DNA of 36,124 nt from positions 1 through 36,124 of IMG/VR virus record IMGVR_UViG_3300044974_000658; one strand, given 5' to 3'. Shown piece after piece: positions 1-36,124 of the stretch. Positions within the stretch are counted from its first letter, which is position 1, and every line of letters starts with the position of its first letter. The notes beneath the pieces are model-generated. The model did not search any database, was not told where the DNA came from, and was given only the letters and a program-made list of their open reading frames with translations. The translations under genes and the position numbers were made by a program. The DNA is from a virus.

Positions 1-719
1 TCGGCTTCTTTCTCAATTTCAATTTCCATTACTGGAGTAAATTCATTACTTCCTTTAATTACTGCACTACCTTCGATAACTTTTGCTTCAGTAACCGCCC
101 AAAAGAAACCTTTTTCGTCAGCTACTTCTTTATTAATTACCATAGGATAGTATTTATTCCAGTTTTCCTTTTCAGCTGAATATTCTGCTTCGTTTGAATT
201 AATACATAGGTACAACTTAACATATCGCATTCCTACAGAATGATTGTATACACGACCTTTTTTGTATAAATCAAACATAAAAGGATTAACCTCTTGTTTT
301 ATTTGAGTATCAAAAACTAAAGCTTCTGTATTTCCATCATAGTTAAAACCAAGTTTTTTGAAAGGAATTACTTTAGTATATGCTTTTAATTCATCTTTTA
401 CTGAATCTGATATAATCTTATCAAATTCCATTTCATGTTCTTGTAATAAATACAAAGTTTTTGATTCTTGTAAAGATTTCTTCCAAATACCTTGAATATG
501 ACAATCCATGTGGCTATCTATTACGTTTGTGGTATTAATAACCAATTTAGCACGTAATACAGTTGGATTTTCCACACTTAAAGAAATATCTTCTGCTTTA
601 TTTGCACTTTCTTTTTCTTCAATTAAAGATACATTCATTACAAAATCACCACGTTTGATAGCGTTTTTCTTTTGTGCAATAATTAGATCTTTATTCTTAA
701 ATACTTCTTCAAATGTCAT
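1..719 (-). CDS. HK97-type prohead maturation protease, left copy, cut by window edge
   Basis: This is the N-terminal portion of the protease annotated in full at 33203-34012; the C-terminal end runs off base 1. Apart from the silent difference at base 96 the coding sequence is the same. The histidine of the LQEHE motif and the serine of YNHSVGMR, the expected catalytic pair of HK97-like prohead proteases, are both included. It is not a second gene but the same locus seen again because of the terminal redundancy. Its start overlaps the stop of a 22-aa ORF by ATGA. Confidence 0.9.
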   Translation of the reverse strand, partial: MTFEEVFKNKDLIIAQKKNAIKRGDFVMNVSLIEEKESANKAEDISLSVENPTVLRAKLVINTTNVIDSHMDCHIQGIWKKSLQESKTLYLLQEHEMEFDKIISDSVKDELKAYTKVIPFKKLGFNYDGNTEALVFDTQIKQEVNPFMFDLYKKGRVYNHSVGMRYVKLYLCINSNEAEYSAEKENWNKYYPMVINKEVADEKGFFWAVTEAKVIEGSAVIKGSNEFTPVMEIEIEKEA

Positions 720-784
720 TTCTTTACTATTTGAGTTTCTTTGATAATCTTAAGTTTTTCCTTCTTAATCTTCTTAATATCCAT
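716..784 (-). CDS. 22-aa lysine-rich leader ORF before the protease (left copy)
   Basis: A 22-codon ORF beginning MDIKKIKKEK and ending QIVKK. About ten of 22 residues are lysine. Its TGA stop overlaps the protease ATG as ATGA, the same 4-nt coupling seen between many neighbours in this genome, and its ATG follows a 7-bp palindrome directly. I recognise no family. It could be a true small protein, a leader peptide that delivers ribosomes to the protease start, or chance. The coupling and position favour translation, but the length makes this tentative. Confidence 0.4.
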   Translation of the reverse strand: MDIKKIKKEKLKIIKETQIVKK

Positions 785-804
785 TTTGATTATATTTTAA
801 TCAA
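785..804. repeat. Palindromic intergenic element, left copy
   Basis: TTGATTA (786-792) and TAATCAA (798-804) form a perfect 7-bp inverted repeat around TATTT. The 19-mer TTTGATTATATTTTAATCA (785-803) recurs exactly at 29553-29571, after the tail tube gene. Here it lies directly before the ATG of the small ORF leading into the protease and capsid genes. No TAnnTTTG box is visible on the minus strand nearby, so this may be a phage-specific regulatory site for late genes. That role is inference. Confidence 0.5.
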
Positions 805-835
805 TGTAAAAGTAAATAAAAAAAATAATATTTGT

Positions 836-843
836 TATTTTTG
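836..843 (+). promoter_or_regulatory. Possible -7 box for the portal gene
   Basis: TATTTTTG fits the Bacteroidetes TAnnTTTG -7 consensus and lies 23 nt before the portal ATG at 867. No convincing TTG/TTTG -33 element is found 19-21 nt upstream, so support is moderate. Portal is the only plus-strand gene and would need its own promoter. A second candidate, AATATTTG just upstream, misses the first T of the consensus. Confidence 0.4.
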
Positions 844-866
844 ACTAAAAATTAATCAATTTAGAT

Positions 867-2078
867 ATGTTTATTAAACTAACAGAACGCTTAGGCTTCA
901 ATTTTGGATTCAAAAGATACGATTCTAACCCACAAATGCAAGGTGTTAATCTATTATCTTTAAATGGTAATGACTTTATCGATCCTGAAAATATAGATGC
1001 TTATGATATTTATTCAACTACTCCGCATCTATGGGCTGTAATACAAAGAAGAGGAGATTTATTAGCTGCTGGTCAATGGAGACATTATAAGTTAGTAAAT
1101 GGTCAAAAGGTAGAAGTAGATAATAGTGAAATAGTAAATACTTTAGAAAATCCTAACCCATTATATAAAGGTAATGACTATCTAAGGTTATTAAATGAAA
1201 ATAAGTGTGTTTACGGTAACGTATATACATATCAGGTAAAACCTTATTCTTTATCAAATCCATTATTATTAACTATTCTACCAAGTTATGATGTAAGGAT
1301 TAAAACGTTTAATAAATGGTTTAAACAAAGTAATATTGAAGATATTATTCAACATTATGAAATTATTTCTAGTAATGAGAAATTAGAAGTAAAAGATATA
1401 AATCATGTTTGGATTCAAAACTCTAAAAATCCTTTACAAGGTGAAAGCCCATTGCATAATTTATATATGCCAATATCAAATCTTAGATTAGGTTTAAGAT
1501 TTAGAAATACTTTAATGGCAAAAAAAGGAGCAATTGGTATTTTATCTAACGAATCAAAGGATCAAGCTGGACACGTTGCAATACCTAAAGATGAACGTTT
1601 AAGAATAGAACAAGAATTTCAAAAAGATTACGGAATTCAAGAAGGTAAAAGTTCTATAATAATGGCTTCATCTAATCTTAAATGGCAGTCAATATCATTC
1701 CCAACAAAAGATTTAATGTTATTTGAAGAGGATGAAAATGATTTTTGTCAAATATGCGATGCTTATGGAGTAAAAAGAGATTTGTTTGCTAGTACCAAAG
1801 GAGCAACTTTTGAGAATCAAAAAGAAGCATTAAAACAAACATATCAAAGTACTATTATTCCTGAAGCTGAAGAAATAGCTATGAATCATTCCTCAATGTT
1901 TAACTTAGATGGTAAGACTGAATGGTTAGAATTAGATTACTCACATATTCCGGTACTACAAGAAAATCAAGTTGAGAAAGCTCGAGTAAACAAATTACTA
2001 ACTGAAAGCATTAAAACATTAAAAGATGCTGGATTTGAAGATAAACAAATAAATGAATTGTTAGGGGTAAATCTATAA
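867..2078 (+). CDS. Phage portal protein (HK97-like), left copy
   Basis: A 403-aa protein with the layout of HK97-family portals. The N-terminal part has HLWAVIQRRGDLLAAGQW, where portals usually read 'av...ia..va...w', followed by LLNENKCVYGNVYTY, the usual 'L.GNaY' region, and a C-terminal helical part rich in acidic residues. It forms the dodecameric ring at one capsid vertex for DNA entry and tail joining. Length is typical. Gene order TerS-TerL-portal-protease-capsid is normal, but this gene alone lies on the plus strand. It converges on TerL with a 6-bp overlap of the two 3' ends and diverges from the protease. An identical copy is at 34160-35371. Confidence 0.9.
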   Translation: MFIKLTERLGFNFGFKRYDSNPQMQGVNLLSLNGNDFIDPENIDAYDIYSTTPHLWAVIQRRGDLLAAGQWRHYKLVNGQKVEVDNSEIVNTLENPNPLYKGNDYLRLLNENKCVYGNVYTYQVKPYSLSNPLLLTILPSYDVRIKTFNKWFKQSNIEDIIQHYEIISSNEKLEVKDINHVWIQNSKNPLQGESPLHNLYMPISNLRLGLRFRNTLMAKKGAIGILSNESKDQAGHVAIPKDERLRIEQEFQKDYGIQEGKSSIIMASSNLKWQSISFPTKDLMLFEEDENDFCQICDAYGVKRDLFASTKGATFENQKEALKQTYQSTIIPEAEEIAMNHSSMFNLDGKTEWLELDYSHIPVLQENQVEKARVNKLLTESIKTLKDAGFEDKQINELLGVNL

Positions 2079-3452
2079 AACCCTTAACACTCCTTCTCTT
2101 TGTAAATGTAATACAACATAAGATATAGCATCCATTGTATGGTTATTATTATCTTCAGGCTCTTCTAACGTAATTCCATGTCTATCAACTTTACGTGAAT
2201 AGTTTTCTTGTTCATGCTTTATGTTTTGTGAACTTGAAGTATAATATATCTTAATATTGTTCATTAAGTCAATCCTATCTATAATAGTACCTTTGTAAGC
2301 AACATGGCTATCGTAACCAAATCTTCTAAGCATGGCTATTTTTAAAGGTCTATTTGAATCACATATAATCGGTCTATCTTCTAGTATACCTAACTTTTTA
2401 AACATATAAATAACTATACCTTCATTCACTCCTTCGGAAAGTTCATAGTTCGTTATTTCATTACGTTGGTTAGATTGTAATTTTTCTCTAATAATATTTT
2501 CACTATCGTAATTCTTTTCATGTACGTATATAGCACCGTCATAATATTTGACTTCAACAACAGCCCATGGATCAACAGCTCCCCAGTCACAACCATAATA
2601 AACAGGTGCATCAAGTTGATGATATTCATGTTCGCTTATTTCTGACCATTTAAATATTCTATTAGGTTTCTCAGATTTCAAACCAAGTCCGTAAACTTCC
2701 CAGTTGAATTTAGAAGCACTATTTTTATTTTCGTTATCTAAACATCTTTGAAGCTCTATAATTTGATTTTTATTTAATTGCTTAATGTTTTGTTCAAAGT
2801 TATACGAAAATGCTTCTGAAATGCTTAAAACGTTATTTAAAACAGATTCACACATTTCTAATGGTTGGTAAGAAAGTATTTTATTTCTACTTTCAGCTGG
2901 ACAAAATGGATTATCTTTGAATGTAGAGTGTATTATAAGACTTCTTTTATCTTTCATTAAATCTTCTACCCAATGACCTTTTTTTGGATTGTAATCAATA
3001 AATACAAAGTCACTAGTACGTTGATCTAATTGGTTAAATGTAGTTAGTGAAATATTGTAAGGTTCATTAACCCAACAACAATCTTGTGTAAGTCCATGTA
3101 TCTTTTCTTCATCATCTGTACCTAAGAATTCAACACTAGAAAAGTTATTATAGAAAAATTTACCTTCTGTTTTATTTAAAGTAAATCCTTTTTGATACAT
3201 ATTATTTTCACGTAAATAGCGAATAGCATCTTGTAGTATTGTTTGTCTACAATCATGCTTTGTATCTCTCCAAATAGTCATACGTTTATTTGGATTCTGT
3301 AATGCGTATAAGTGATGCAATTGGATTAAAGATACTGTTTTACTACTACGTGAACTACCTACGTTTATAATGTATCTATATTTGTTAGATCCATCTTTAT
3401 TTTGTTCCTGAATAGCATTCCAATTTTTCTCAAATACTATCGTCGCTTTCAT
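2073..3452 (-). CDS. terL: Terminase large subunit
   Basis: A 459-aa packaging motor ATPase and nuclease. Residues about 31-40 read VGSSRSSKTV, a Walker A variant of phage terminases. CCWVNEPYN (about 124-132) is the Walker B region with its glutamate. The C-terminal RNase H-like nuclease is marked by YYGCDWGAVDPWAV, ICDSNRP and a late DAISYVVLHL, giving three acidic positions for metal binding. It acts at the portal and cuts concatemeric DNA. The start overlaps the TerS stop by 23 nt; the 3' end overlaps the oppositely oriented portal gene by 6 bp. The 3' part is repeated at 35366-36124. Confidence 0.93.
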   Translation of the reverse strand: MKATIVFEKNWNAIQEQNKDGSNKYRYIINVGSSRSSKTVSLIQLHHLYALQNPNKRMTIWRDTKHDCRQTILQDAIRYLRENNMYQKGFTLNKTEGKFFYNNFSSVEFLGTDDEEKIHGLTQDCCWVNEPYNISLTTFNQLDQRTSDFVFIDYNPKKGHWVEDLMKDKRSLIIHSTFKDNPFCPAESRNKILSYQPLEMCESVLNNVLSISEAFSYNFEQNIKQLNKNQIIELQRCLDNENKNSASKFNWEVYGLGLKSEKPNRIFKWSEISEHEYHQLDAPVYYGCDWGAVDPWAVVEVKYYDGAIYVHEKNYDSENIIREKLQSNQRNEITNYELSEGVNEGIVIYMFKKLGILEDRPIICDSNRPLKIAMLRRFGYDSHVAYKGTIIDRIDLMNNIKIYYTSSSQNIKHEQENYSRKVDRHGITLEEPEDNNNHTMDAISYVVLHLQREGVLRVL

Positions 3453-8378: not shown

Positions 8379-8409
8379 CAAATATACAACATTACTTTTA
8401 ATAAACAAA
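8379..8409 (-). promoter_or_regulatory. Early promoter 2 (TTTG-N19-TATATTTG)
   Basis: On the minus strand TTTG (8409-8406), 19 nt and TATATTTG (8386-8379) give a full Bacteroidetes-type promoter. The expected start point near 8373 leaves a leader of about 70 nt before the ERF ATG at 8305. It lies just after the NinG stop. Its -33 region is embedded in an inverted repeat nearly identical to that of the promoter at 15028-15059. Confidence 0.85.
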
Positions 8410-8415
8410 TGTAAT
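8391..8415. repeat. Inverted repeat at early promoter 2 (candidate operator)
   Basis: ATTACTTTT (8391-8399) and AAATGTAAT (8407-8415) form 9-bp arms with one mismatch around a 7-nt spacer containing the -33 TTTG complement. The 25-bp block matches the one at 15041-15065 in all but one position. A dimeric regulator bound here would cover the -33 element, so this is a candidate operator that would control both early promoters together. Confidence 0.65.
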
Positions 8416-9301: not shown

Positions 9302-9465
9302 TTTTCCATTTTTTTCATGTAACCACTTACAAAACCTTTAATATAACCGTTTTTATACTCTTGGCTTGTTTCTAACTTCATTTGCAAAAATTTATTTTCT
9401 TGCTCTAAATAATCTATTGTTTCTAATAGTTTTTTATAACTAAAAGGGCATATCTGTTTCTTCAT
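9277..9465 (-). CDS. 62-aa coiled-coil hypothetical protein
   Basis: A 62-aa protein beginning MKKQICPFSYKKLLETIDYL with a leucine/glutamate-rich coiled coil (LEQENKFLQMKLETSQEY) and a C-terminal KNGYIKGFVSGYMKKMEK. I chose Met at 9465, which overlaps the primase-helicase stop by 26 nt; an upstream ATG at 9486 adds seven residues but lengthens the overlap to 47 nt, more than any other junction here. No family recognised. Confidence 0.6.
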   Translation of the reverse strand: MKKQICPFSYKKLLETIDYLEQENKFLQMKLETSQEYKNGYIKGFVSGYMKKMEKCELTNKK

Positions 9466-11236
9466 CAAAATCTCTGTTAGGTTCAAAATAATTTATTACT
9501 TCTATTTCTTTATTTATTCTATTATTAATTATATTATAGTTGCTTTCAGTTCCATCTACATAAAATCTTCTATTATTATTATTCCAGTTAAATTTAGTAA
9601 ATGATCCTATTTTACCTTGAAAATCATACTTTGTTTTTAAATTAATAACTAAAGTATGTTCGTTCTCATTTTCATCACCAAAATGTCTATATACACATAA
9701 ACCATTGTGTGTTTGGTTACGAAAATCAGCAGAGCCACTTACATCATATAAATCAGGAACTTCAAATTTATCAGTTTTTTCATTCTTTTTCATTTTAGTA
9801 GGGTGTGCAACTAAAAAAATATGTACATTATTTTGAATACAAAAAGATGTTATTCTTGTTAAAATTTCGTCAATTGCTTCTTTTCCTCTCATTCCTTTTG
9901 GCATTAATACTTTGTTCCAAGCATCAATTATAAATAAATTAATACCGTATGTGTACATTTGCTCTTTAAACTTGTTTAGTAACCAATCCCAATCAGGGGT
10001 AATTGTATCCTCTGCAGTTGTATAGTATAACTTTTCTCTGGACCATTCGGTATAATCATAAATATCTGTTTCATCCATTTTGTTTGTACCCCAAAAAGCT
10101 TTACCGATTGCTAAAGTAGAATATTTAGAATTATATAATTCTAATGGATTATGTTCAGGTGAGAAAATAGAAAGTTTATAATCGTAATCTTTAACCAAAT
10201 TTAAACAATACCAATCAACAAAACTACTTTTCCCATGTGATGGAATACCAGTTACGACTGTTAATTGTCCCATCATTATAGAAAAGTTTTCATTAAAACC
10301 TCTAAACATTTCAGATTTAGGGTAAATAGTCTTTGGTAATCCATCATTATATAGTCTTAAAGTTGCATCTAACAAATCAAATGAATTAAACGTACCACCA
10401 ATACTAAATCTCTTTTCGTTTTTTATCGTTTTAATCAATTCTCCCGACTTTAAATCGTCATTAGCATCCTTGCTATCAAACTCAATATAAACGCATCTGT
10501 AACGCCCTAATCTTTGAGCAATCTTTTCACGTACTTCTATTCCTTTTGAATCGTTATCAGTTGCTATAATAAATTTTTTAATATCCTTTAAATATTTTTC
10601 TGAATTAATCCAAAAGTCATCATTATCATTTGCACCGTTTGGAAGGCTTATAACGTTCTTAATTCCTATTTCATATAAAGCCAAAACATCAAATTCACCT
10701 TCTACTATGTAACATTCATCTAAACCAATAATAGAATTTATATTGTAAAAGATAGGTTTACCACCAGTATGTGATGTAAAAAGTTTTTTTGTTTCTCCAT
10801 TGATATTGGCAACTCCCCTATATTTTTTATTTACCAAAGTTTCACCTTCAAAGTAATTAAACACAATTGCATTTTGTTTCTTTTGTGTTTGTGGAAAATA
10901 TACTTCTTCTTGTGTTATCTCAAATTGGTTGAGTGTATTTTGGCTAATCATTCTTTCACTCCATACCCATTTAACAAGTTTATCCGGTAGGTTCGTATAG
11001 TTTTTCCATTCCTGTTTTGGAAATGTATAAACTTTATCTTGATATTTTGTTTCTGCTTTATCTCTAATCGTTAAAGCACCACAATAAAAACAATTACCAA
11101 ATCCTCTGTTATGATCTATTTTTAACGATCTATCTCTTTTGTCAGTTCTTGTTTCATCACAAGCTGGACACCTTACAGGTTCTTTACCACTATATTTTTT
11201 TAGTTGTAATGTATTCCAATCAATAAATTGTTTCAT
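9440..11236 (-). CDS. Bifunctional primase-helicase (T7 gp4-like)
   Basis: A 598-aa replicative enzyme. Near the N-terminus CPACDE (about 19-24) and CFYCGA (about 49-54) form a zinc ribbon. The TOPRIM primase region follows with CYIVEGEFDVLALYEIG and IATDNDSKG. The RecA-like helicase core has Walker A GIPSHGKSSF (about 335), Walker B LFIIDAWNK, and VHIFLVAHPTK for the sensor motif, then SADFRNQTHNGLCVYR. This is the domain order of T7 gp4 and Twinkle: it primes and unwinds at the phage fork. It overlaps the initiator-like gene by ATGA and is the central replication gene; no phage DNA polymerase is seen, so host polymerase is presumably recruited. Confidence 0.92.
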   Translation of the reverse strand: MKQFIDWNTLQLKKYSGKEPVRCPACDETRTDKRDRSLKIDHNRGFGNCFYCGALTIRDKAETKYQDKVYTFPKQEWKNYTNLPDKLVKWVWSERMISQNTLNQFEITQEEVYFPQTQKKQNAIVFNYFEGETLVNKKYRGVANINGETKKLFTSHTGGKPIFYNINSIIGLDECYIVEGEFDVLALYEIGIKNVISLPNGANDNDDFWINSEKYLKDIKKFIIATDNDSKGIEVREKIAQRLGRYRCVYIEFDSKDANDDLKSGELIKTIKNEKRFSIGGTFNSFDLLDATLRLYNDGLPKTIYPKSEMFRGFNENFSIMMGQLTVVTGIPSHGKSSFVDWYCLNLVKDYDYKLSIFSPEHNPLELYNSKYSTLAIGKAFWGTNKMDETDIYDYTEWSREKLYYTTAEDTITPDWDWLLNKFKEQMYTYGINLFIIDAWNKVLMPKGMRGKEAIDEILTRITSFCIQNNVHIFLVAHPTKMKKNEKTDKFEVPDLYDVSGSADFRNQTHNGLCVYRHFGDENENEHTLVINLKTKYDFQGKIGSFTKFNWNNNNRRFYVDGTESNYNIINNRINKEIEVINYFEPNRDFDEETDMPF

Positions 11237-11940
11237 AGTGTAATTTTAAAAAAGTTAGAATTATTATTACTTTCTTTTTGTGAAATAGTTTCATTTTTTA
11301 ACCATTCATTATTAAATCCTTTCCAACTATTTTCAACACATTTTTGAAGTATATAATTTTTATCATTACCATTCTTTTCAACTTCAGATATAAATTTATT
11401 AAAAGCAGTTTCAGTATTTACACCATGTTTAGCCTTTCTAACTTTTAACCATTCATCAACTAATTCAGATTTAAAACCAAAAGATATAAGAGCGGAGCGA
11501 AAATTAAATGTAATATTTTTCTTTTCTTCTCTTTTCTCTTCTATTCTATTCTCTTCTGTATTGCTATCGTTATTCGGTTGTAATACGTTCGTATTACTTT
11601 CGTTATTCGATTGATTTACTTCTGTATTACGTTTTGCCCATCTTTTAGCAACCGCATCTTTTGCTTTTTCGCTTTTATTTAAAGCATTTTCAAACTGTTC
11701 ATCTAAAAAATATATTTTTATAAAACCATCTACTTCTTTAATTACCTTTTTAGATAACAGGTTTTTATAATTTTCTTCATCACATTCAATAATTGCATCT
11801 TCAATAGATAATTTTGTTTCATTTATCCAATATAAACAGCATAATTCCATAAAAGAAGATTTAGCTTCTTGAGTACATCTTTGTATTTTTCCCATTTTCC
11901 ACTCTGAAATAGAAAATTTAAACCATTGTAACTTTTCCAT
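11233..11940 (-). CDS. Replication initiator/helicase-loader-like protein (YdaU/DnaD type)
   Basis: A 235-aa protein. The N-terminus (MEKLQWFKFSISEWKMGKIQ, then MELCCLYW) resembles the DUF1376/YdaU-like winged-helix lead of phage replication proteins. AKDAVAKRWAKRN precedes a low-complexity Asn/Glu linker (about 105-140). The C-terminal helical domain, SALISFGFKSELVDEWLKVRKAKHG, ends in WKGFNNEWL, a common end in phage initiators and DnaD-like loaders. It probably binds the origin and delivers the primase-helicase, whose gene overlaps by 4 nt. The linker DNA contains repeats that may be the origin. Confidence 0.75.
   Translation of the reverse strand: MEKLQWFKFSISEWKMGKIQRCTQEAKSSFMELCCLYWINETKLSIEDAIIECDEENYKNLLSKKVIKEVDGFIKIYFLDEQFENALNKSEKAKDAVAKRWAKRNTEVNQSNNESNTNVLQPNNDSNTEENRIEEKREEKKNITFNFRSALISFGFKSELVDEWLKVRKAKHGVNTETAFNKFISEVEKNGNDKNYILQKCVENSWKGFNNEWLKNETISQKESNNNSNFFKITL
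11551..11630. repeat. Iteron-like repeats inside the initiator gene (candidate origin)
   Basis: Direct repeats TCGTTATTCG(G/A)TTG occur at 11567-11580 and 11600-11613, 33 nt apart. Between them is a perfect inverted repeat, GTAATACG/CGTATTAC (11580-11587/11590-11597). TTCTGTATT occurs on both sides. This lies in the low-complexity linker of the initiator-like gene, the same arrangement as the lambda origin inside gene O. The repeats also encode similar peptide segments (NNESNT, NNDSNT), so protein-level repetition is an alternative explanation. Confidence 0.4.
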
Positions 11941-11942
11941 AA

Positions 11943-12128
11943 CTAATCTAATAAAGCAATTTGTTTACGAAGTTCTTTAGAAAGTTTTATAGCTGTTGAT
12001 TTATCTAAATTAACTGCTCTTTCGTGATTATCTTCTGTTATAGAAATAATCAAACTTGTTTCAGAAATAACATCAATCTCAATAAAATCTTCTTTTGTTT
12101 CTTGACAACGGAATTTTAGACTAACCAT
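11943..12128 (-). CDS. 61-aa hypothetical protein
   Basis: A 61-aa protein starting MVSLKFRCQETKEDFIEIDV, predicted beta strands followed by a helix STAIKLSKELRKQIALLD. No cysteine pairs or membrane span. It is the first gene after the structured RNA element and starts 2 nt upstream of the replication initiator, so it heads the replication operon. Small beta-beta-alpha proteins of this type are common in phage early regions, but no role can be assigned. Confidence 0.65.
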   Translation of the reverse strand: MVSLKFRCQETKEDFIEIDVISETSLIISITEDNHERAVNLDKSTAIKLSKELRKQIALLD

Positions 12129-12171
12129 AATTTTAATAAAGGTTTAAAGATTACCAGTAACTTTTAGTGAA

Positions 12172-12263
12172 CAAAAAAAGCCAAGCTAACGAAGGTGCGT
12201 GAGAAAACCTTGTTGCTTGACTTTGTGTTATAAAAAATGTTTTTCGGAGTTTCTCACGCTTCG
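12172..12263 (-). ncRNA. Candidate structured small RNA or attenuator with interleaved helices
   Basis: A stretch of about 92 nt between a TATATTTG box and a Rho-independent terminator, with no ATG in the transcribed direction. Helix A pairs CGAA-GCGTGAGAAA (12263-12250) with TTTCTCACGC (12206-12197) and, past a GGT/ACC bulge, TTCG (12193-12190): 14 pairs. Helix B pairs AAGTCAAGC (12223-12215) with GCTTGGCTT (12186-12178): nine pairs including one G-U. The order A-B-A'-B' means the helices cross, giving an H-type pseudoknot or two exclusive folds. It lies upstream of the replication genes, so it could be a free small RNA or a leader that controls read-through into them. Confidence 0.6.
12173..12223 (-). 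terminator. Terminator at the end of the structured RNA
   Basis: AAGTCAAGC (12223-12215) pairs with GCTTGGCTT (12186-12178), followed by a run of T (12179-12173) on the minus strand. The loop is long (28 nt) and contains one arm of the competing helix, so termination strength may depend on which fold forms. No separate promoter is visible between here and the 61-aa gene at 12128, so some read-through is expected. Confidence 0.6.
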
Positions 12264-12268
12264 ATACA

Positions 12269-12276
12269 CAAATATA
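12269..12276 (-). promoter_or_regulatory. -7 box for the structured RNA
   Basis: TATATTTG on the minus strand, an exact TAnnTTTG match, 11 nt after the stop of the 53-aa gene. A start site five to seven bases downstream would place the 5' end exactly at the first arm of helix A (12263). No clear TTG/TTTG lies 19-21 nt upstream, so this promoter may be weak or activator-dependent. Confidence 0.5.
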
Positions 12277-12287
12277 ATAATTATTGT

Positions 12288-12449
12288 TTAATTATAACTG
12301 TTTTTTAATTTAATTAATGCTTCATTTAGTTCATTTAAACGTTTATCACGTTCTTTTTTAGCTTCTTTATACTCATTACACTCCCATTTGTTTAAACAGC
12401 GTTGTAATAATTTAATTTCATATTCTATTAATTTTATTGCGTAATTCAT
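12288..12449 (-). CDS. 53-aa coiled-coil protein
   Basis: A 53-codon ORF beginning MNYAIKLIEYEIKLLQRCLN, then KWECNEYKEAKKERDKRLNE and a final helix. The whole sequence has heptad character and is highly charged, so it is probably a single long coiled coil. Its ATG overlaps the stop of the NUMOD4-like gene by one base (TAATG). Similar short helical proteins are frequent in Bacteroidetes phages, but I cannot name a function. Confidence 0.7.
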   Translation of the reverse strand: MNYAIKLIEYEIKLLQRCLNKWECNEYKEAKKERDKRLNELNEALIKLKNSYN

Positions 12450-12643
12450 TAAAATATTTTTTTAGATAAGCTAATTGGATAAATATCCTTTTTAACTGAA
12501 TTATTTTCTAAAGTTAAAGTAACCTTACAAACGTTTCTTTTATGCTTTTTAATATGCTTTAAAATACGTCCTGTGTTGTCATTTCTTACATTTCCTAAGT
12601 TAGATATAGAATAATGTTCTATTAATGGTTTAAATTGCTCCAT
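12449..12643 (-). CDS. Stand-alone NUMOD4-like DNA-binding module
   Basis: A 64-aa protein beginning MEQFKPLIEHYSISNLGNVR, then DNTGRILKHIKKHKRNVCKV. 'YSISNLGNVR' is the NUMOD4 signature, normally the DNA-binding lead of HNH homing endonucleases. Here no HNH nuclease follows: the protein ends at SLSKKIF where the HNH domain (usually introduced by 'VHRLVA.aFI') would begin. It is either a decayed homing endonuclease or a NUMOD4 module kept as a small DNA-binding protein. It overlaps the HTH gene upstream by 14 nt. Confidence 0.65.
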   Translation of the reverse strand: MEQFKPLIEHYSISNLGNVRNDNTGRILKHIKKHKRNVCKVTLTLENNSVKKDIYPISLSKKIF

Positions 12644-12845
12644 TTTGACTAATTAAAATGTATTTAACATATTTATTATCTTCTACCGGTAACGAGTTTA
12701 TAACCATTCCACGTTTACGAAATCTATGTATAATAGAACTTAATCTTGTTACTTGATATTTCTCAAATGCTATCCATGAAGTAATAGATCCGTATCTATT
12801 TAAATGTTCTTCTATGTGTTTTGTTTTGGTTTCCATTTTTTTCAT
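12630..12845 (-). CDS. Small helix-turn-helix protein (HTH_39-like)
   Basis: A 71-aa protein with IEEHLNRYGSITSWIAFEKY and VTRLSSIIHRFRKRGMVI, the pattern of the phage HTH_39 family (a small winged helix: 'G.iT...A....g..rL..rI..LR..G..I'). The C-terminal strands KYVKYILI would form the wing. It probably binds DNA as an early regulator and could be the protein acting on the repeated promoter palindromes, although that is inference. Start at 12845; Met4 is a possible alternative. Confidence 0.72.
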   Translation of the reverse strand: MKKMETKTKHIEEHLNRYGSITSWIAFEKYQVTRLSSIIHRFRKRGMVINSLPVEDNKYVKYILISQNGAI

Positions 12846-12855
12846 TTTTATTTAT

Positions 12856-13092
12856 TTATAATCCTTGAAAATAACCCATATCATGAGCATATTCATTATC
12901 CATCATCATGTCGTAATGACTTTGTGCTATATCTCCAGACAAACCAGAGTGATGATCTAATTTTTGTTTTGGTTTTTTCTGAGATTGAATTGCTCTAACT
13001 ACCATTTTTAAAGAGTTTCTAAGATGATTAATATCCATATCATCAATTGATATTTTTTTACCATCTTTCATTGTCCAATATACCTTTTCCAT
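12856..13092 (-). CDS. 78-aa conserved phage protein
   Basis: A 78-aa protein starting MEKVYWTMKDGKKISIDDMD, followed by INHLRNSLKMVVRAIQSQ and a C-terminal stretch rich in His, Asp and Met (DHHSGLSG; HYDMMMDNEYAHDMG). The lead 'W.t.dG..i.i..M...HL.N.lk.i.r' is a short conserved module in many phage early proteins, probably a zinc-free helical domain. Function is unknown. It lies between the acidic 44-aa protein and the HTH protein. Confidence 0.7.
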   Translation of the reverse strand: MEKVYWTMKDGKKISIDDMDINHLRNSLKMVVRAIQSQKKPKQKLDHHSGLSGDIAQSHYDMMMDNEYAHDMGYFQGL

Positions 13093-13111
13093 CTTATTTA
13101 TTATTTAATCG

Positions 13112-13246
13112 TTAATATTCATCATCTTCATCATCTTGATCATCTAGATCGTCATCGTCGTCATCGTCATCGTACTCATCAAGGTATTTGTCTAATTGTG
13201 ATTCCCAGTATCTATCAAAAGAATCGTTTCCATAACATCCAGCCAT
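13112..13246 (-). CDS. 44-aa hyperacidic protein
   Basis: A 44-codon ORF starting MAGCYGNDSFDRYWESQLDK. The C-terminal half is almost entirely aspartate and glutamate, including eight aspartates in a row (about 26-33). It starts 2 nt after the stop of the gene upstream and ends 19 nt before the next start. Acidic tails like this can mimic DNA and block nucleic-acid-binding proteins, or be flexible tails; DNA mimicry is inference from composition. Confidence 0.65.
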   Translation of the reverse strand: MAGCYGNDSFDRYWESQLDKYLDEYDDDDDDDDLDDQDDEDDEY

Positions 13247-13248
13247 AA

Positions 13249-13476
13249 TTATTTTGTTTTTATTATTTTATCGTAATACACTTCTCCTAAGGTTCTTCTT
13301 TCTTTAATTGCTTGTTTTAATAACTCATCATGTTTCATTTCAGAATAATTAATTGCTCTTATAATCTGGTTACGTTCCATTTCTTTTGCTTGTTCAAATA
13401 TTTTAATTTCTGCTTTCATATCTTCAGAAAGCACATAAATATTTAAATTTTCAAATAACCATTCTACTGCTGTCAT
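13249..13476 (-). CDS. 75-aa conserved phage protein
   Basis: A 75-aa protein starting MTAVEWLFENLN, then IKIFEQAKEMERNQIIRAIN and LKQAIKERRTLGEVYYDK. 'TAVEWL...FEQAKEMEk.QI..A' is a short, all-helical protein type that recurs in Bacteroidetes phages and prophages, function not established. It overlaps the gene upstream by 4 nt (ATGA). Confidence 0.75.
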   Translation of the reverse strand: MTAVEWLFENLNIYVLSEDMKAEIKIFEQAKEMERNQIIRAINYSEMKHDELLKQAIKERRTLGEVYYDKIIKTK

Positions 13477-13700
13477 AATTTATTATTTTCTAAAATTTCT
13501 AACATATCTTTAATCATTGCGACAACTAACTCTCCATTCATAAAGTTTTCACCATATCCTTTTTTAATCATTTGTTGGATTATTTCGTCTAATTCTTTTT
13601 TTTTAATTTCTTCTAAAATAATTTTTTCTAACTCAGGAGTCCAAATACCTTGACTTCCTAATCCAAGCCTTAAACCATCAATTATTATTTTTTTTTTCAT
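13473..13700 (-). CDS. 75-aa hypothetical protein
   Basis: A 75-aa protein starting MKKKIIIDGLRLGLGSQGIW, then LEKIILEEIKKKELDEIIQQM and a C-terminal helix VVAMIKDMLEILEN. Mostly helical with no cysteine or membrane pattern. ATGA overlaps join it to the genes on both sides, so it is made as part of a coupled chain of small early proteins. Family unknown. Confidence 0.65.
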   Translation of the reverse strand: MKKKIIIDGLRLGLGSQGIWTPELEKIILEEIKKKELDEIIQQMIKKGYGENFMNGELVVAMIKDMLEILENNKL

Positions 13701-14026
13701 ATCCTACAAAATTTTACAGCATTATTATAAATTGCTTTTTCACTTGGGCTTAAATCTTCAAACCGATAAACTGGAGTACATAACATTTCTTCTTCTGTTG
13801 CATACGCTTCGTTCTTGTAACCTAATCCAACTTTTGTTTTAAATTTTTCTTTTTCTAATCTAATCATTGCTAATTTGTAACATTTAGGCTTATGATTAGC
13901 TCTGCGTTTTAACTCATCAATTATAATTAAATCATGAGGATTACGTGTTAATTTATTTACTAATGCTATGGTTGAATAGCTTCGTATAGTATTTTTTTTA
14001 ATTGATTCGATTAAAGCTTGATCCAT
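13697..14026 (-). CDS. 109-aa hypothetical protein
   Basis: A 109-aa protein starting MDQALIESIKKNTIRSYSTI, with IIIDELKRRANHKPKCYKLA and a C-terminal LSPSEKAIYNNAVKFCRI. The middle is basic. It overlaps the HTH-like gene upstream by 16 nt and the 75-aa gene downstream by 4 nt. No named family; the composition suggests nucleic-acid contact, but there is no catalytic motif. Confidence 0.65.
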   Translation of the reverse strand: MDQALIESIKKNTIRSYSTIALVNKLTRNPHDLIIIDELKRRANHKPKCYKLAMIRLEKEKFKTKVGLGYKNEAYATEEEMLCTPVYRFEDLSPSEKAIYNNAVKFCRI

Positions 14027-14280
14027 TTTACTTTTGTTTTAATTTTAACTGGGTATCTATTTTCAGTTATGAACTTGTTAAAGTTTATGATTAAATCAGT
14101 GTTTTTAACTTCTTCTTTTTCAAGTGTCCATAAAGTTTTATAAGTTACACCTATTGTTTTAGCTATATCTTTTCGCAACATTCCTAATTGTAGCATTCTT
14201 TCTATTGCGATTATTTTCATATCTCGATACTCCTGGATGTTTGGGATATCTTTTTGGAAGTATTTTTTTAAGTAACTCAT
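14011..14280 (-). CDS. 89-aa helix-turn-helix protein
   Basis: An 89-aa protein. Residues about 25-55, AIERMLQLGMLRKDIAKTIG then VTYKTLWTLEKE, form a clear helix-turn-helix with a recognition helix starting after 'IGVT'. The N-terminal helix (EYRDMKII) and basic C-terminus (YPVKIKTKVKWIKL) flank it. It is the second HTH protein in the early region and a candidate regulator of the two promoters with the shared palindrome. It overlaps its neighbours by 4 and 16 nt. Confidence 0.7.
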   Translation of the reverse strand: MSYLKKYFQKDIPNIQEYRDMKIIAIERMLQLGMLRKDIAKTIGVTYKTLWTLEKEEVKNTDLIINFNKFITENRYPVKIKTKVKWIKL

Positions 14281-15027: not shown

Positions 15028-15059
15028 CAAATATATATACATTACATTTAATAAACAAA
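15028..15059 (-). promoter_or_regulatory. Early promoter 1 (TTTG-N20-TATATTTG)
   Basis: On the minus strand TTTG (15059-15056), 20 nt and TATATTTG (15035-15028) give a complete Bacteroidetes-type promoter, 28 nt before the ATG at 15000. It follows the terminator of the tail and lysis operon and drives the small early genes leftward. Its upstream half is almost identical to early promoter 2 at 8379-8409. Confidence 0.87.
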
Positions 15060-15065
15060 TGTAAT
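15041..15065. repeat. Perfect inverted repeat at early promoter 1 (candidate operator)
   Basis: ATTACATTT (15041-15049) and AAATGTAAT (15057-15065) are perfect 9-bp arms around AATAAAC. The block overlaps the -33 element and differs from the block at 8391-8415 at one position. Shared, palindromic and promoter-embedded, it looks like the binding site of a dimeric regulator that controls both early promoters. Confidence 0.68.
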
Positions 15066-33202: not shown

Positions 33203-34012
33203 TTAATTTAATAGATTAATAAAAAATTGTTGTTTTTTGTTGCTTTGAGTGTCTTGTGACGGCTCGTTTATATTTGTTTCAGAAGTGATTTGCTCGGCTT
33301 CTTTCTCAATTTCAATTTCCATTACTGGAGTAAATTCATTACTTCCTTTAATTACTGCACTACCTTCGATAACTTTTGCTTCAGTAACAGCCCAAAAGAA
33401 ACCTTTTTCGTCAGCTACTTCTTTATTAATTACCATAGGATAGTATTTATTCCAGTTTTCCTTTTCAGCTGAATATTCTGCTTCGTTTGAATTAATACAT
33501 AGGTACAACTTAACATATCGCATTCCTACAGAATGATTGTATACACGACCTTTTTTGTATAAATCAAACATAAAAGGATTAACCTCTTGTTTTATTTGAG
33601 TATCAAAAACTAAAGCTTCTGTATTTCCATCATAGTTAAAACCAAGTTTTTTGAAAGGAATTACTTTAGTATATGCTTTTAATTCATCTTTTACTGAATC
33701 TGATATAATCTTATCAAATTCCATTTCATGTTCTTGTAATAAATACAAAGTTTTTGATTCTTGTAAAGATTTCTTCCAAATACCTTGAATATGACAATCC
33801 ATGTGGCTATCTATTACGTTTGTGGTATTAATAACCAATTTAGCACGTAATACAGTTGGATTTTCCACACTTAAAGAAATATCTTCTGCTTTATTTGCAC
33901 TTTCTTTTTCTTCAATTAAAGATACATTCATTACAAAATCACCACGTTTGATAGCGTTTTTCTTTTGTGCAATAATTAGATCTTTATTCTTAAATACTTC
34001 TTCAAATGTCAT
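33203..34012 (-). CDS. HK97-type prohead maturation protease
   Basis: A 269-aa serine protease of the HK97 prohead family. LVINTTNVIDSHMD and LYLLQEHEMEFDKII contain the catalytic-type histidine; GRVYNHSVGMRYV contains the serine. VTEAKVIEGSAVIKGSNEFT is the conserved late strand region ('e..l.E.s.v..ga...a'). It cuts the capsid delta domain during maturation. The last 45 residues (EINEPSQ, QSNKKQQFF region) are a polar tail, which may be self-processed. The ATG overlaps the 22-aa leader ORF by ATGA. The left copy at 1-719 lacks the C-terminus. Confidence 0.88.
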   Translation of the reverse strand: MTFEEVFKNKDLIIAQKKNAIKRGDFVMNVSLIEEKESANKAEDISLSVENPTVLRAKLVINTTNVIDSHMDCHIQGIWKKSLQESKTLYLLQEHEMEFDKIISDSVKDELKAYTKVIPFKKLGFNYDGNTEALVFDTQIKQEVNPFMFDLYKKGRVYNHSVGMRYVKLYLCINSNEAEYSAEKENWNKYYPMVINKEVADEKGFFWAVTEAKVIEGSAVIKGSNEFTPVMEIEIEKEAEQITSETNINEPSQDTQSNKKQQFFINLLN

Positions 34013-34077
34013 TTCTTTACTATTTGAGTTTCTTTGATAATCTTAAGTTTTTCCTTCTTAATCTTCTTAATATCCAT
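34009..34077 (-). CDS. 22-aa lysine-rich leader ORF before the protease (right copy)
   Basis: Second view of the ORF at 716-784: 22 codons, about ten lysines, stop overlapping the protease ATG by ATGA. It begins one base after the palindromic element at 34078-34097. Whether it is translated cannot be decided from sequence alone. Confidence 0.4.
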   Translation of the reverse strand: MDIKKIKKEKLKIIKETQIVKK

Positions 34078-34097
34078 TTTGATTATATTTTAATCAA
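34078..34097. repeat. Palindromic intergenic element, right copy
   Basis: Right copy of the element at 785-804, with the 7-bp arms TTGATTA and TAATCAA. It lies in the 147-nt gap between the divergent protease and portal genes, which also holds the 22-aa ORF and a candidate portal promoter box. Confidence 0.5.
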
Positions 34098-34128
34098 TGT
34101 AAAAGTAAATAAAAAAAATAATATTTGT

Positions 34129-34136
34129 TATTTTTG
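34129..34136 (+). promoter_or_regulatory. Possible -7 box for the portal gene (right copy)
   Basis: TATTTTTG, same site as 836-843, 23 nt before the portal ATG at 34160. It matches TAnnTTTG but lacks an evident -33 element. Confidence 0.4.
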
Positions 34137-34159
34137 ACTAAAAATTAATCAATTTAGAT

Positions 34160-35371
34160 ATGTTTATTAAACTAACAGAACGCTTAGGCTTCAATTTTGG
34201 ATTCAAAAGATACGATTCTAACCCACAAATGCAAGGTGTTAATCTATTATCTTTAAATGGTAATGACTTTATCGATCCTGAAAATATAGATGCTTATGAT
34301 ATTTATTCAACTACTCCGCATCTATGGGCTGTAATACAAAGAAGAGGAGATTTATTAGCTGCTGGTCAATGGAGACATTATAAGTTAGTAAATGGTCAAA
34401 AGGTAGAAGTAGATAATAGTGAAATAGTAAATACTTTAGAAAATCCTAACCCATTATATAAAGGTAATGACTATCTAAGGTTATTAAATGAAAATAAGTG
34501 TGTTTACGGTAACGTATATACATATCAGGTAAAACCTTATTCTTTATCAAATCCATTATTATTAACTATTCTACCAAGTTATGATGTAAGGATTAAAACG
34601 TTTAATAAATGGTTTAAACAAAGTAATATTGAAGATATTATTCAACATTATGAAATTATTTCTAGTAATGAGAAATTAGAAGTAAAAGATATAAATCATG
34701 TTTGGATTCAAAACTCTAAAAATCCTTTACAAGGTGAAAGCCCATTGCATAATTTATATATGCCAATATCAAATCTTAGATTAGGTTTAAGATTTAGAAA
34801 TACTTTAATGGCAAAAAAAGGAGCAATTGGTATTTTATCTAACGAATCAAAGGATCAAGCTGGACACGTTGCAATACCTAAAGATGAACGTTTAAGAATA
34901 GAACAAGAATTTCAAAAAGATTACGGAATTCAAGAAGGTAAAAGTTCTATAATAATGGCTTCATCTAATCTTAAATGGCAGTCAATATCATTCCCAACAA
35001 AAGATTTAATGTTATTTGAAGAGGATGAAAATGATTTTTGTCAAATATGCGATGCTTATGGAGTAAAAAGAGATTTGTTTGCTAGTACCAAAGGAGCAAC
35101 TTTTGAGAATCAAAAAGAAGCATTAAAACAAACATATCAAAGTACTATTATTCCTGAAGCTGAAGAAATAGCTATGAATCATTCCTCAATGTTTAACTTA
35201 GATGGTAAGACTGAATGGTTAGAATTAGATTACTCACATATTCCGGTACTACAAGAAAATCAAGTTGAGAAAGCTCGAGTAAACAAATTACTAACTGAAA
35301 GCATTAAAACATTAAAAGATGCTGGATTTGAAGATAAACAAATAAATGAATTGTTAGGGGTAAATCTATAA
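34160..35371 (+). CDS. Phage portal protein (HK97-like), right copy
   Basis: Identical in sequence to the 403-aa portal protein at 867-2078 and the same locus seen again through the terminal redundancy. It is the one plus-strand gene of the genome, divergent from the protease (147-nt gap with the palindrome and small ORF) and convergent with TerL, whose stop it overlaps by 6 bp. Family features (HLWAVIQRR; YGNVYTYQ; acidic helical end) are described at the left copy. Confidence 0.9.
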   Translation: MFIKLTERLGFNFGFKRYDSNPQMQGVNLLSLNGNDFIDPENIDAYDIYSTTPHLWAVIQRRGDLLAAGQWRHYKLVNGQKVEVDNSEIVNTLENPNPLYKGNDYLRLLNENKCVYGNVYTYQVKPYSLSNPLLLTILPSYDVRIKTFNKWFKQSNIEDIIQHYEIISSNEKLEVKDINHVWIQNSKNPLQGESPLHNLYMPISNLRLGLRFRNTLMAKKGAIGILSNESKDQAGHVAIPKDERLRIEQEFQKDYGIQEGKSSIIMASSNLKWQSISFPTKDLMLFEEDENDFCQICDAYGVKRDLFASTKGATFENQKEALKQTYQSTIIPEAEEIAMNHSSMFNLDGKTEWLELDYSHIPVLQENQVEKARVNKLLTESIKTLKDAGFEDKQINELLGVNL

Positions 35372-36124
35372 AACCCTTAACACTCCTTCTCTTTGTAAAT
35401 GTAATACAACATAAGATATAGCATCCATTGTATGGTTATTATTATCTTCAGGCTCTTCTAACGTAATTCCATGTCTATCAACTTTACGTGAATAGTTTTC
35501 TTGTTCATGCTTTATGTTTTGTGAACTTGAAGTATAATATATCTTAATATTGTTCATTAAGTCAATCCTATCTATAATAGTACCTTTGTAAGCAACATGG
35601 CTATCGTAACCAAATCTTCTAAGCATGGCTATTTTTAAAGGTCTATTTGAATCACATATAATCGGTCTATCTTCTAGTATACCTAACTTTTTAAACATAT
35701 AAATAACTATACCTTCATTCACTCCTTCGGAAAGTTCATAGTTCGTTATTTCATTACGTTGGTTAGATTGTAATTTTTCTCTAATAATATTTTCACTATC
35801 GTAATTCTTTTCATGTACGTATATAGCACCGTCATAATATTTGACTTCAACAACAGCCCATGGATCAACAGCTCCCCAGTCACAACCATAATAAACAGGT
35901 GCATCAAGTTGATGATATTCATGTTCGCTTATTTCTGACCATTTAAATATTCTATTAGGTTTCTCAGATTTCAAACCAAGTCCGTAAACTTCCCAGTTGA
36001 ATTTAGAAGCACTATTTTTATTTTCGTTATCTAAACATCTTTGAAGCTCTATAATTTGATTTTTATTTAATTGCTTAATGTTTTGTTCAAAGTTATACGA
36101 AAATGCTTCTGAAATGCTTAAAAC
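35366..36124 (-). CDS. terL: Terminase large subunit, C-terminal part, right copy cut by window edge
   Basis: Codes for the last 252 residues of TerL; the start lies beyond the end of the window and is found complete at 2073-3452. It includes the nuclease motifs YYGCDWGAVDPWAV, ICDSNRP and DAISYVVLHL but not the ATPase Walker A and B. An internal ATG at 35974 is not a real start; the reading frame continues open to base 36124. It is not a truncated gene but the edge of the redundant end. Confidence 0.9.
   Translation of the reverse strand, partial: VLSISEAFSYNFEQNIKQLNKNQIIELQRCLDNENKNSASKFNWEVYGLGLKSEKPNRIFKWSEISEHEYHQLDAPVYYGCDWGAVDPWAVVEVKYYDGAIYVHEKNYDSENIIREKLQSNQRNEITNYELSEGVNEGIVIYMFKKLGILEDRPIICDSNRPLKIAMLRRFGYDSHVAYKGTIIDRIDLMNNIKIYYTSSSQNIKHEQENYSRKVDRHGITLEEPEDNNNHTMDAISYVVLHLQREGVLRVL

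Follow-up and report, generated by a model that had tools for sequence, protein, structure and literature searches.

The minus strand of IMG/VR record IMGVR_UViG_3300044974_000658, analysed over its whole 36,124-nt stretch (the window), carries a structured leader. Judged by sequence, it belongs to an RNA family that is large, apparently undescribed and found in phages of Flavobacteriia. In general the RNA forms two hairpins whose loops are complementary, a description that suits it better than a simple H-type pseudoknot. We think it probable that its members make up a new family of leader RNAs in phages, acting in cis as promoter-proximal conditional terminators (attenuators) of early and replication operons. 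The architecture, covariation, position and allele swaps of the leader were established by comparison of sequences.

Anatomy of the leader

Throughout the family, a Bacteroidetes promoter box is followed by hairpin D, which holds the 5′ arm of helix A in its loop, and then by a linker rich in A and U; helices B and C next form a strong terminator hairpin, which presents the 3′ arm of A in its apical loop and leads through a T-run to a start codon. In the window (minus strand throughout), the −7 box is TATATTTG at 12269–12276, of the Bacteroidetes TAnnTTTG type. The 5′ arm of helix A, CGAAGCGUGAGAAA (12263–12250; CGAA followed by the core GCGUGAGAAA at 12259–12250), pairs and covaries with 12206–12190 (UUUCUCACGC...UUCG) through 14 pairs with a 3-nt bulge, that is, 10 continuous pairs plus 4. 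Hairpin D, a family-wide feature, spans 12245–12263 (CGAAG at 12263–12259 against CUCCG at 12249–12245, with one mismatch) and encloses the A 5′ arm in its loop; here it is weak, at −1.1 kcal/mol, and no better than shuffled sequence. The A/U-rich linker occupies 12226–12244. The terminator stems, both of which covary, consist of outer helix B (AAGUCAAGC at 12223–12215 with GCUUGGCUU at 12186–12178) and inner helix C (AAGGU at 12207–12211 with ACCUU at 12192–12196). Their apical loop, UUUCUCACGC (12197–12206), is the core of the covarying A 3′ arm, which in most members is largely unpaired in the minimum free energy (MFE) structure of the terminator. A tract of seven U residues (12173–12179) follows, as a T-run does in nearly all members, and no ATG is present. 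The outer part of helix A (UUCG, 12193–12190) overlaps, and may compete with, the 3′ arm of C (ACCUU, 12196–12192).

The preliminary description had identified two crossing helices between 12178 and 12263, and its coordinates and pairings were correct: the box, the 14 pairs of helix A with their bulge, the nine pairs of helix B and the lack of an ATG can be read directly in the sequence. Its remark that helix A begins at the predicted 5′ end is true of the window and peculiar to it, and by treating the element as a feature of one phage it understated the observation, as there is a whole family, with several copies in some genomes. The window leader by itself has a nested MFE of −22.5 kcal/mol (z −1.78), which is only mildly unusual for a single sequence, and the decisive evidence comes from comparison with relatives.

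Covariation and fold across the family

Members were found in IMG/VR contigs with an 18-mer and a gapped two-arm pattern, and the family extends to cultured phages of Flavobacterium, Cellulophaga and Polaribacter. Cultured carriers are Hattifnattvirus (two copies), Lillamyvirus morran, Cellulophaga phi19:1, Elemovirus and Polaribacter P12002L; the phage collections with the leader comprise Lillamyvirus, Hattifnattvirus, Muminvirus, Elemovirus, Cellubavirus and Incheonvirus, and because these are cultured and sequenced the leader can be tested at once. Upstream of the box, family members show an excess of TTG at −24 to −19. We counted at least 25 sequence types of helix A, every one of them complementary, among them GCGTGAGAA/TTCTCACGC, GCGTAGGAA/TTCCTACGC, GCCTGAGAA/TTCTCAGGC, GCATCGGAA/TTCCGATGC, AGGTCGGAA/TTCCGACCT and GAGTCTCAA/TTGAGACTC. 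The sequence of A differs among viruses and yet stays matched, so the pairing must matter.

In an alignment of 25 sequences, the 8-bp core of A was paired in all 25, with 27 double-sided and no one-sided changes. For A, B and C combined, we counted 61 double-sided cells against 17.7 expected; none of 500 shuffles reached as high, and sliding the pairing partner abolished the signal. Helices B and C covary as RNA, G–U pairs included. Compensating changes in relatives, whose absence the preliminary description had named as grounds for rejection, are therefore present, and the crossing helices are genuine and subject to selection.

Descriptor searches demanded a box of the TATATTTG type and seven exact A pairs, so that variants of A with G–U pairs were under-sampled. 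Since some searches had demanded complementarity, three less biased checks were made. A pattern for the 3′ arm that left four A bases free matched 20 distinct sequences that also had a box and a T-run, and each of these had a matching 5′ arm (20/20). A covariance model in which B and C were paired and A was left unpaired returned, with rough E-values, seven matches outside the training set; all seven had a perfect A helix of 8–10 bp and a promoter box, and three A types among them were new. In the third check, the full descriptor (box, D, A, B and T-run) matched 23 times per Mb in phage records and twice per Mb in trinucleotide-matched random sequence. Loci chosen only for a related replication protein or primase gave further members, with entirely different stems.

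The same comparison revises the proposed H-type pseudoknot. Its crossing helices stand, as A and B both covary, but a 5′ partner that is single-stranded outside any hairpin is not the rule in the family: of 32 non-redundant cases, 31 had a hairpin around the A 5′ arm that scored below versions with shuffled flanks (Wilcoxon p ~1e-9), and its stems differ among members (GAAG/CUUC, GUAG/CUAC, AGUUC/GAACU, AAUG/CAUU). With the 5′ arm usually in a small hairpin of its own, the fold is better named kissing hairpins. When the two halves were folded separately, the terminator half had a mean energy of −17.9 kcal/mol and the 5′ half −3.1 kcal/mol, and the A duplex averaged −12.7 kcal/mol; in 45 of 52 members the terminator MFE left 70% or more of the A 3′ arm unpaired, and the 5′ arm was mostly unpaired in 35 of 52. 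From the A 5′ arm to the terminator base, the gap ranged from 17 to 43 nt and was at least 17 nt in all 52 members, a length that reaching across a 20-nt half-hairpin would need. Because A is confined to the loops in many members, direct competition with the terminator is not forced there. A second leader subclass (loci L008, L018, L250, L395, L448 and L451) often has an internal loop between B and C with possible tandem G–A pairs, which is perhaps kink-turn-like.

The lack of one-sided (G–U) changes in A among the 25 sequences could also arise at the level of DNA, if the arms were inverted half-sites of a repressor near the promoter, their joint changes followed repressor specificity and the terminator were incidental. 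The first arm does lie ~10–25 nt past the promoter box, and differing specificities within one phage would fit different repressors. We judge this very unlikely, given that each arm sits in a hairpin loop and the two hairpins covary independently, that B and C covary with the G–U pairs expected of RNA, that the variable linker gap leaves no fixed helical phase, that the sites are not themselves palindromic and that no linked repressor gene was identified.

The preliminary description knew of no described RNA with such a pattern in Bacteroidetes phages. This agrees with a scan of the leader against Rfam 15, in which no family reached the gathering score, and with a literature search (mainly open-access, with most subscription papers and all preprints outside its scope), which found no description of the family. 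Yfr10 came closest among the sub-threshold Rfam candidates, at 24.1 bits (E 0.11) where its gathering score is 43, and was judged a chance match. A plasmid search and phage BLAST with the window's leader gave nothing useful, as its sequence is not conserved outside its subfamily, and a 14-mer scan of genome contigs was unspecific. A covariance-model scan of 399 Flavobacterium genomes, of limited sensitivity and restricted to the best 10 candidates per genome, returned no chromosomal member; its sole match (L525) was weak and had neither box nor helix A. The family thus adds to the phages of a major aquatic bacterial class an apparently undescribed structured RNA that is proven by covariation. 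We note that two annotated small ORFs overlap the leader, morran gp042 (L447/L454; MN812219, 14157–14300) and snusmum gp041 (L527; MN812237, 14006–14101), and are probably spurious.

Genomic position and conditional termination

The leader stands at the switch to genome replication. The next start codon lies a median of 22 nt past the T-run (60 nt or less in 47 of the 51 cases measured); on the other side, an ORF of the same strand stops a median of 11 nt short of the promoter box (60 nt or less in 43 of 50). The next gene is usually small and leads into replication genes. In the window, as the preliminary description had it, the leader and its terminator precede the replication genes: ORF1 (61 aa, 11943–12128, minus strand) starts at 12128, 44 nt past the T tract, and is followed on the same strand by genes for a replication initiation (O-like/primosomal) protein (11233–11940, PHROG 6451/678) and a DNA primase/helicase with Toprim and DnaB-like domains (9440–11236, Pfam and PHROG). 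Promoter, structured leader and intrinsic terminator thus lie directly before the first gene on one strand, the arrangement of an attenuator. With so little space on either side, transcription can scarcely reach the downstream gene except through the terminator.

The same position bears on the alternatives of small RNA and attenuator that the preliminary description had left side by side. An operon leader with a terminator is what we find, and the closeness of both neighbouring genes makes a free small RNA less likely. Promoter and terminator do delimit a discrete 90-nt RNA, present in several copies in some phages, and this terminated leader could in principle be the product, its loops serving to regulate other RNAs of phage or host. 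Conserved outside targets would, however, forbid what is seen, namely two loops that vary freely and stay mutually complementary, and the position before the start codon is fixed; we regard such a role as highly improbable.

TAnnTTTG by itself is frequent in the window (80 matches against 69 expected). On the plus strand, the interval 11817–14028 has no TAnnTTTG, and its four sigma-70-type matches (two of them at 12102–12131 and 12251–12278) are within chance of the 3.1 expected. Promoter-like boxes at 8379, 15028 and 3983 were inspected and none has such a leader, which is thus not general phage machinery. Two of these spots, both intergenic and on the minus strand (8379–8413 and 15028–15063), carry boxes TACATTTG and TATATTTG ~28 bp apart within similar flanks (ATTACATTTGTTTATTAAA..GTAATGT..TATATTTGTC), a repeated tandem promoter that lacks the leader RNA.

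The T-run terminator separates each promoter upstream of it from the start codon beyond, and we infer that it must be passed conditionally; termination on condition, regulation and switching would then be the work of the leader. As the loop arm of A emerges on the nascent transcript, it would pair with the 5′ arm already made, hinder closure of C and B and so allow read-through; were the 5′ loop occupied, the strong terminator would form. Against this proposal, hairpin D is weak in the window, a few second copies (L028, L315 and L195) lack a T-run of at least four, and the other window promoters inspected have no such leader.

Alternatively, the hairpins could always kiss within one RNA and form a stable 5′ leader or boundary terminator that separates the upstream operon or protects the 5′ end, with A drifting through compensatory changes and carrying no regulatory specificity. 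Structure alone does explain all of the covariation, and the element fills a gap between two same-strand genes. However, a strong terminator so close to the start of essential replication genes needs read-through, and there is little room for another promoter; we hold a purely constitutive structure to be rather unlikely.

Conditional termination could also be under the control of a protein, if ORF1 or a host RNA-binding protein bound the kissing complex and the operon were controlled autogenously. ORF1 was confidently predicted by AlphaFold2 (pLDDT 92.6) to adopt a bbbb-alpha fold, which resembles the nucleic-acid-binding domains of the PUR/Whirly/PC4 type. Its top structural match in VIA-align is human PURA repeat III (Z 8.0, rmsd 2.0 over 58 residues), where a Z of ~8 is near background for folds this small, a point against this reading, and it had no credible Pfam family and no Foldseek match below E 0.001. 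Borrelia Bpur, a bacterial PUR protein, is a known nucleic-acid-binding regulator (PMC3764826). The predicted fold together with this precedent makes protein control a rival to be taken seriously, or else a further layer. In many phages the gene right after the leader is ORF1-like (two similar small families), and leader and ORF1 are swapped together between the window and its nearest relative. As the main explanation we nevertheless consider it unlikely, because one ORF1 family accompanies many A sequences and because a replication, HNH-type or other gene, with no ORF1, follows the leader at L018b, L033, L036, L220, L267, L344 and L400. ORF1 and its relatives form an uncharacterised family of small proteins (~60–75 aa, bbbb-alpha) that usually follows the leader RNA. 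Leader copies also precede NUMOD4/HNH-type genes (L007 5044; L344 5954; L400 2687), as if homing-endonuclease cassettes brought a promoter–leader module of their own.

Exchange of the kissing sequences

The window's nearest relative (L007) has a replication protein 97% identical to that of the window and near-identical DNA as far as the promoter box. Beyond it, leader and first ORF have been exchanged completely until identity resumes in the last codons of that ORF; the L007 leader is unrelated in sequence and the same in architecture, so that leader and ORF1 were swapped as a cassette. Elsewhere A alone is exchanged with compensation in otherwise alike leaders (L002/L011, L185/L220 and L004/L346). 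In L002/L011 and L185/L220 the other stems are almost unchanged, unlike the uniform drift that a constitutive structure would predict. Lillamyvirus (28 records at 99% identity or more) carries GTGAGACG/CGTCTCAC as helix A; Muminvirus, with a leader 91–93% like it, carries GTGGAACG/CGTTCCAC, again swapped with compensation. The hosts of the two are Flavobacterium LMO6/LMO9. On host BAL314, 63 Elemovirus genomes have two leader alleles that are 77% alike (4 against 59 records), and two genomes that were compared share 97% identity over the 2.5 kb around the leader. Such natural pairs of alleles, distinct mainly in their kissing sequence and carried by phages of one host or of sister hosts, lend themselves directly to experiments on RNA specificity and competition between phages.

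Some 14 phages have two leader copies, and the two A pairs differ in every one. Across 13 such pairs, the mean duplex energy is −12.4 kcal/mol for cognate and −3.4 kcal/mol for crossed arms. Differing A pairs within a phage would arise by chance with a probability of ~0.2 from the type frequencies (0.109 per pair), so that the difference is not significant alone; this chance level of about 1 in 5 counts in favour of a constitutive structure.

With two loops kept complementary, kissing can in sequence terms take place within one RNA or between two copies. This allows a more speculative form of the proposed attenuator, in which the partner that occupies the 5′ loop of a nascent leader would be the terminator loop of a leader released earlier. 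The leader would then be its own antisense RNA, with A as a specificity barcode and negative feedback proportional to the number of templates or RNAs: terminated leaders would repress new ones in trans by kissing, and the operon would sense copy number with no antisense gene. We put this forward tentatively, as a possibility that we rather doubt. Intramolecular kissing would compete with binding in trans, and the barcode part is weakened by the chance level just given and by an identical barcode, GCTTCGAC, common to Hattifnattvirus and snusmum9-1. Were leaders their own antisense RNAs, compensated swaps of A would sort co-infecting phages into new 'incompatibility groups' and prevent cross-talk of paralogous leaders in one genome. 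Were A a barcode, phages would possess an RNA-only principle of immunity or copy control, from which short orthogonal RNA switches of natural origin could be drawn.

By analogy, the nearest known mechanism would be the pT181 repC attenuator, in which kissing by an antisense RNA brings about formation of the terminator (PMC3753616). Both have a 5′ leader before a replication gene with a conditional intrinsic terminator (proposed for the phage leader), and both have kissing-hairpin recognition through loops that can be exchanged into orthogonal pairs. Whereas pT181 uses a separate antisense RNA, the sequence of the phage leader places both complementary loops in one sense RNA, with the terminator loop as one partner; reading several members, we saw no conserved antisense promoter at the leader. 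The phage element also differs in having more than one copy in some genomes.

Other systems resemble the leader in part. The antisense-controlled leaders of IncI/IncB/IncL plasmids (repZ type) likewise precede a replication initiator gene and pair loops across two hairpins, but there a pseudoknot controls rep translation, whereas the second hairpin of the phage leader is a terminator with a T-run. The put RNAs of HK022 are two-hairpin RNAs right after early phage promoters, with more than one per genome, as in the phage leader; their loops are not known to be complementary. They act on RNA polymerase, which then passes later terminators, whereas the second hairpin of the phage leader is itself the terminator. 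Type III toxin–antitoxin loci (ToxI/CptI/TenpI) have the same order of promoter, pseudoknotted RNA, terminator and gene, and their RNAs consist of tandem repeats of 34–45 nt. We rejected this candidate: tandem direct repeats of 34–45 nt are absent, the only repeat being an unrelated one of 21 bp at 12408–12452, and the predicted fold of ORF1 is PUR-like and not toxin-like.

We also noted an identical 2.7-kb direct repeat at the two ends of the window (97–2831 and 33390–36124), with the same 403-aa portal gene in each. The record is thus terminally redundant, through a circular or permuted genome or an assembly overlap, and its unique genome amounts to ~33.3 kb.
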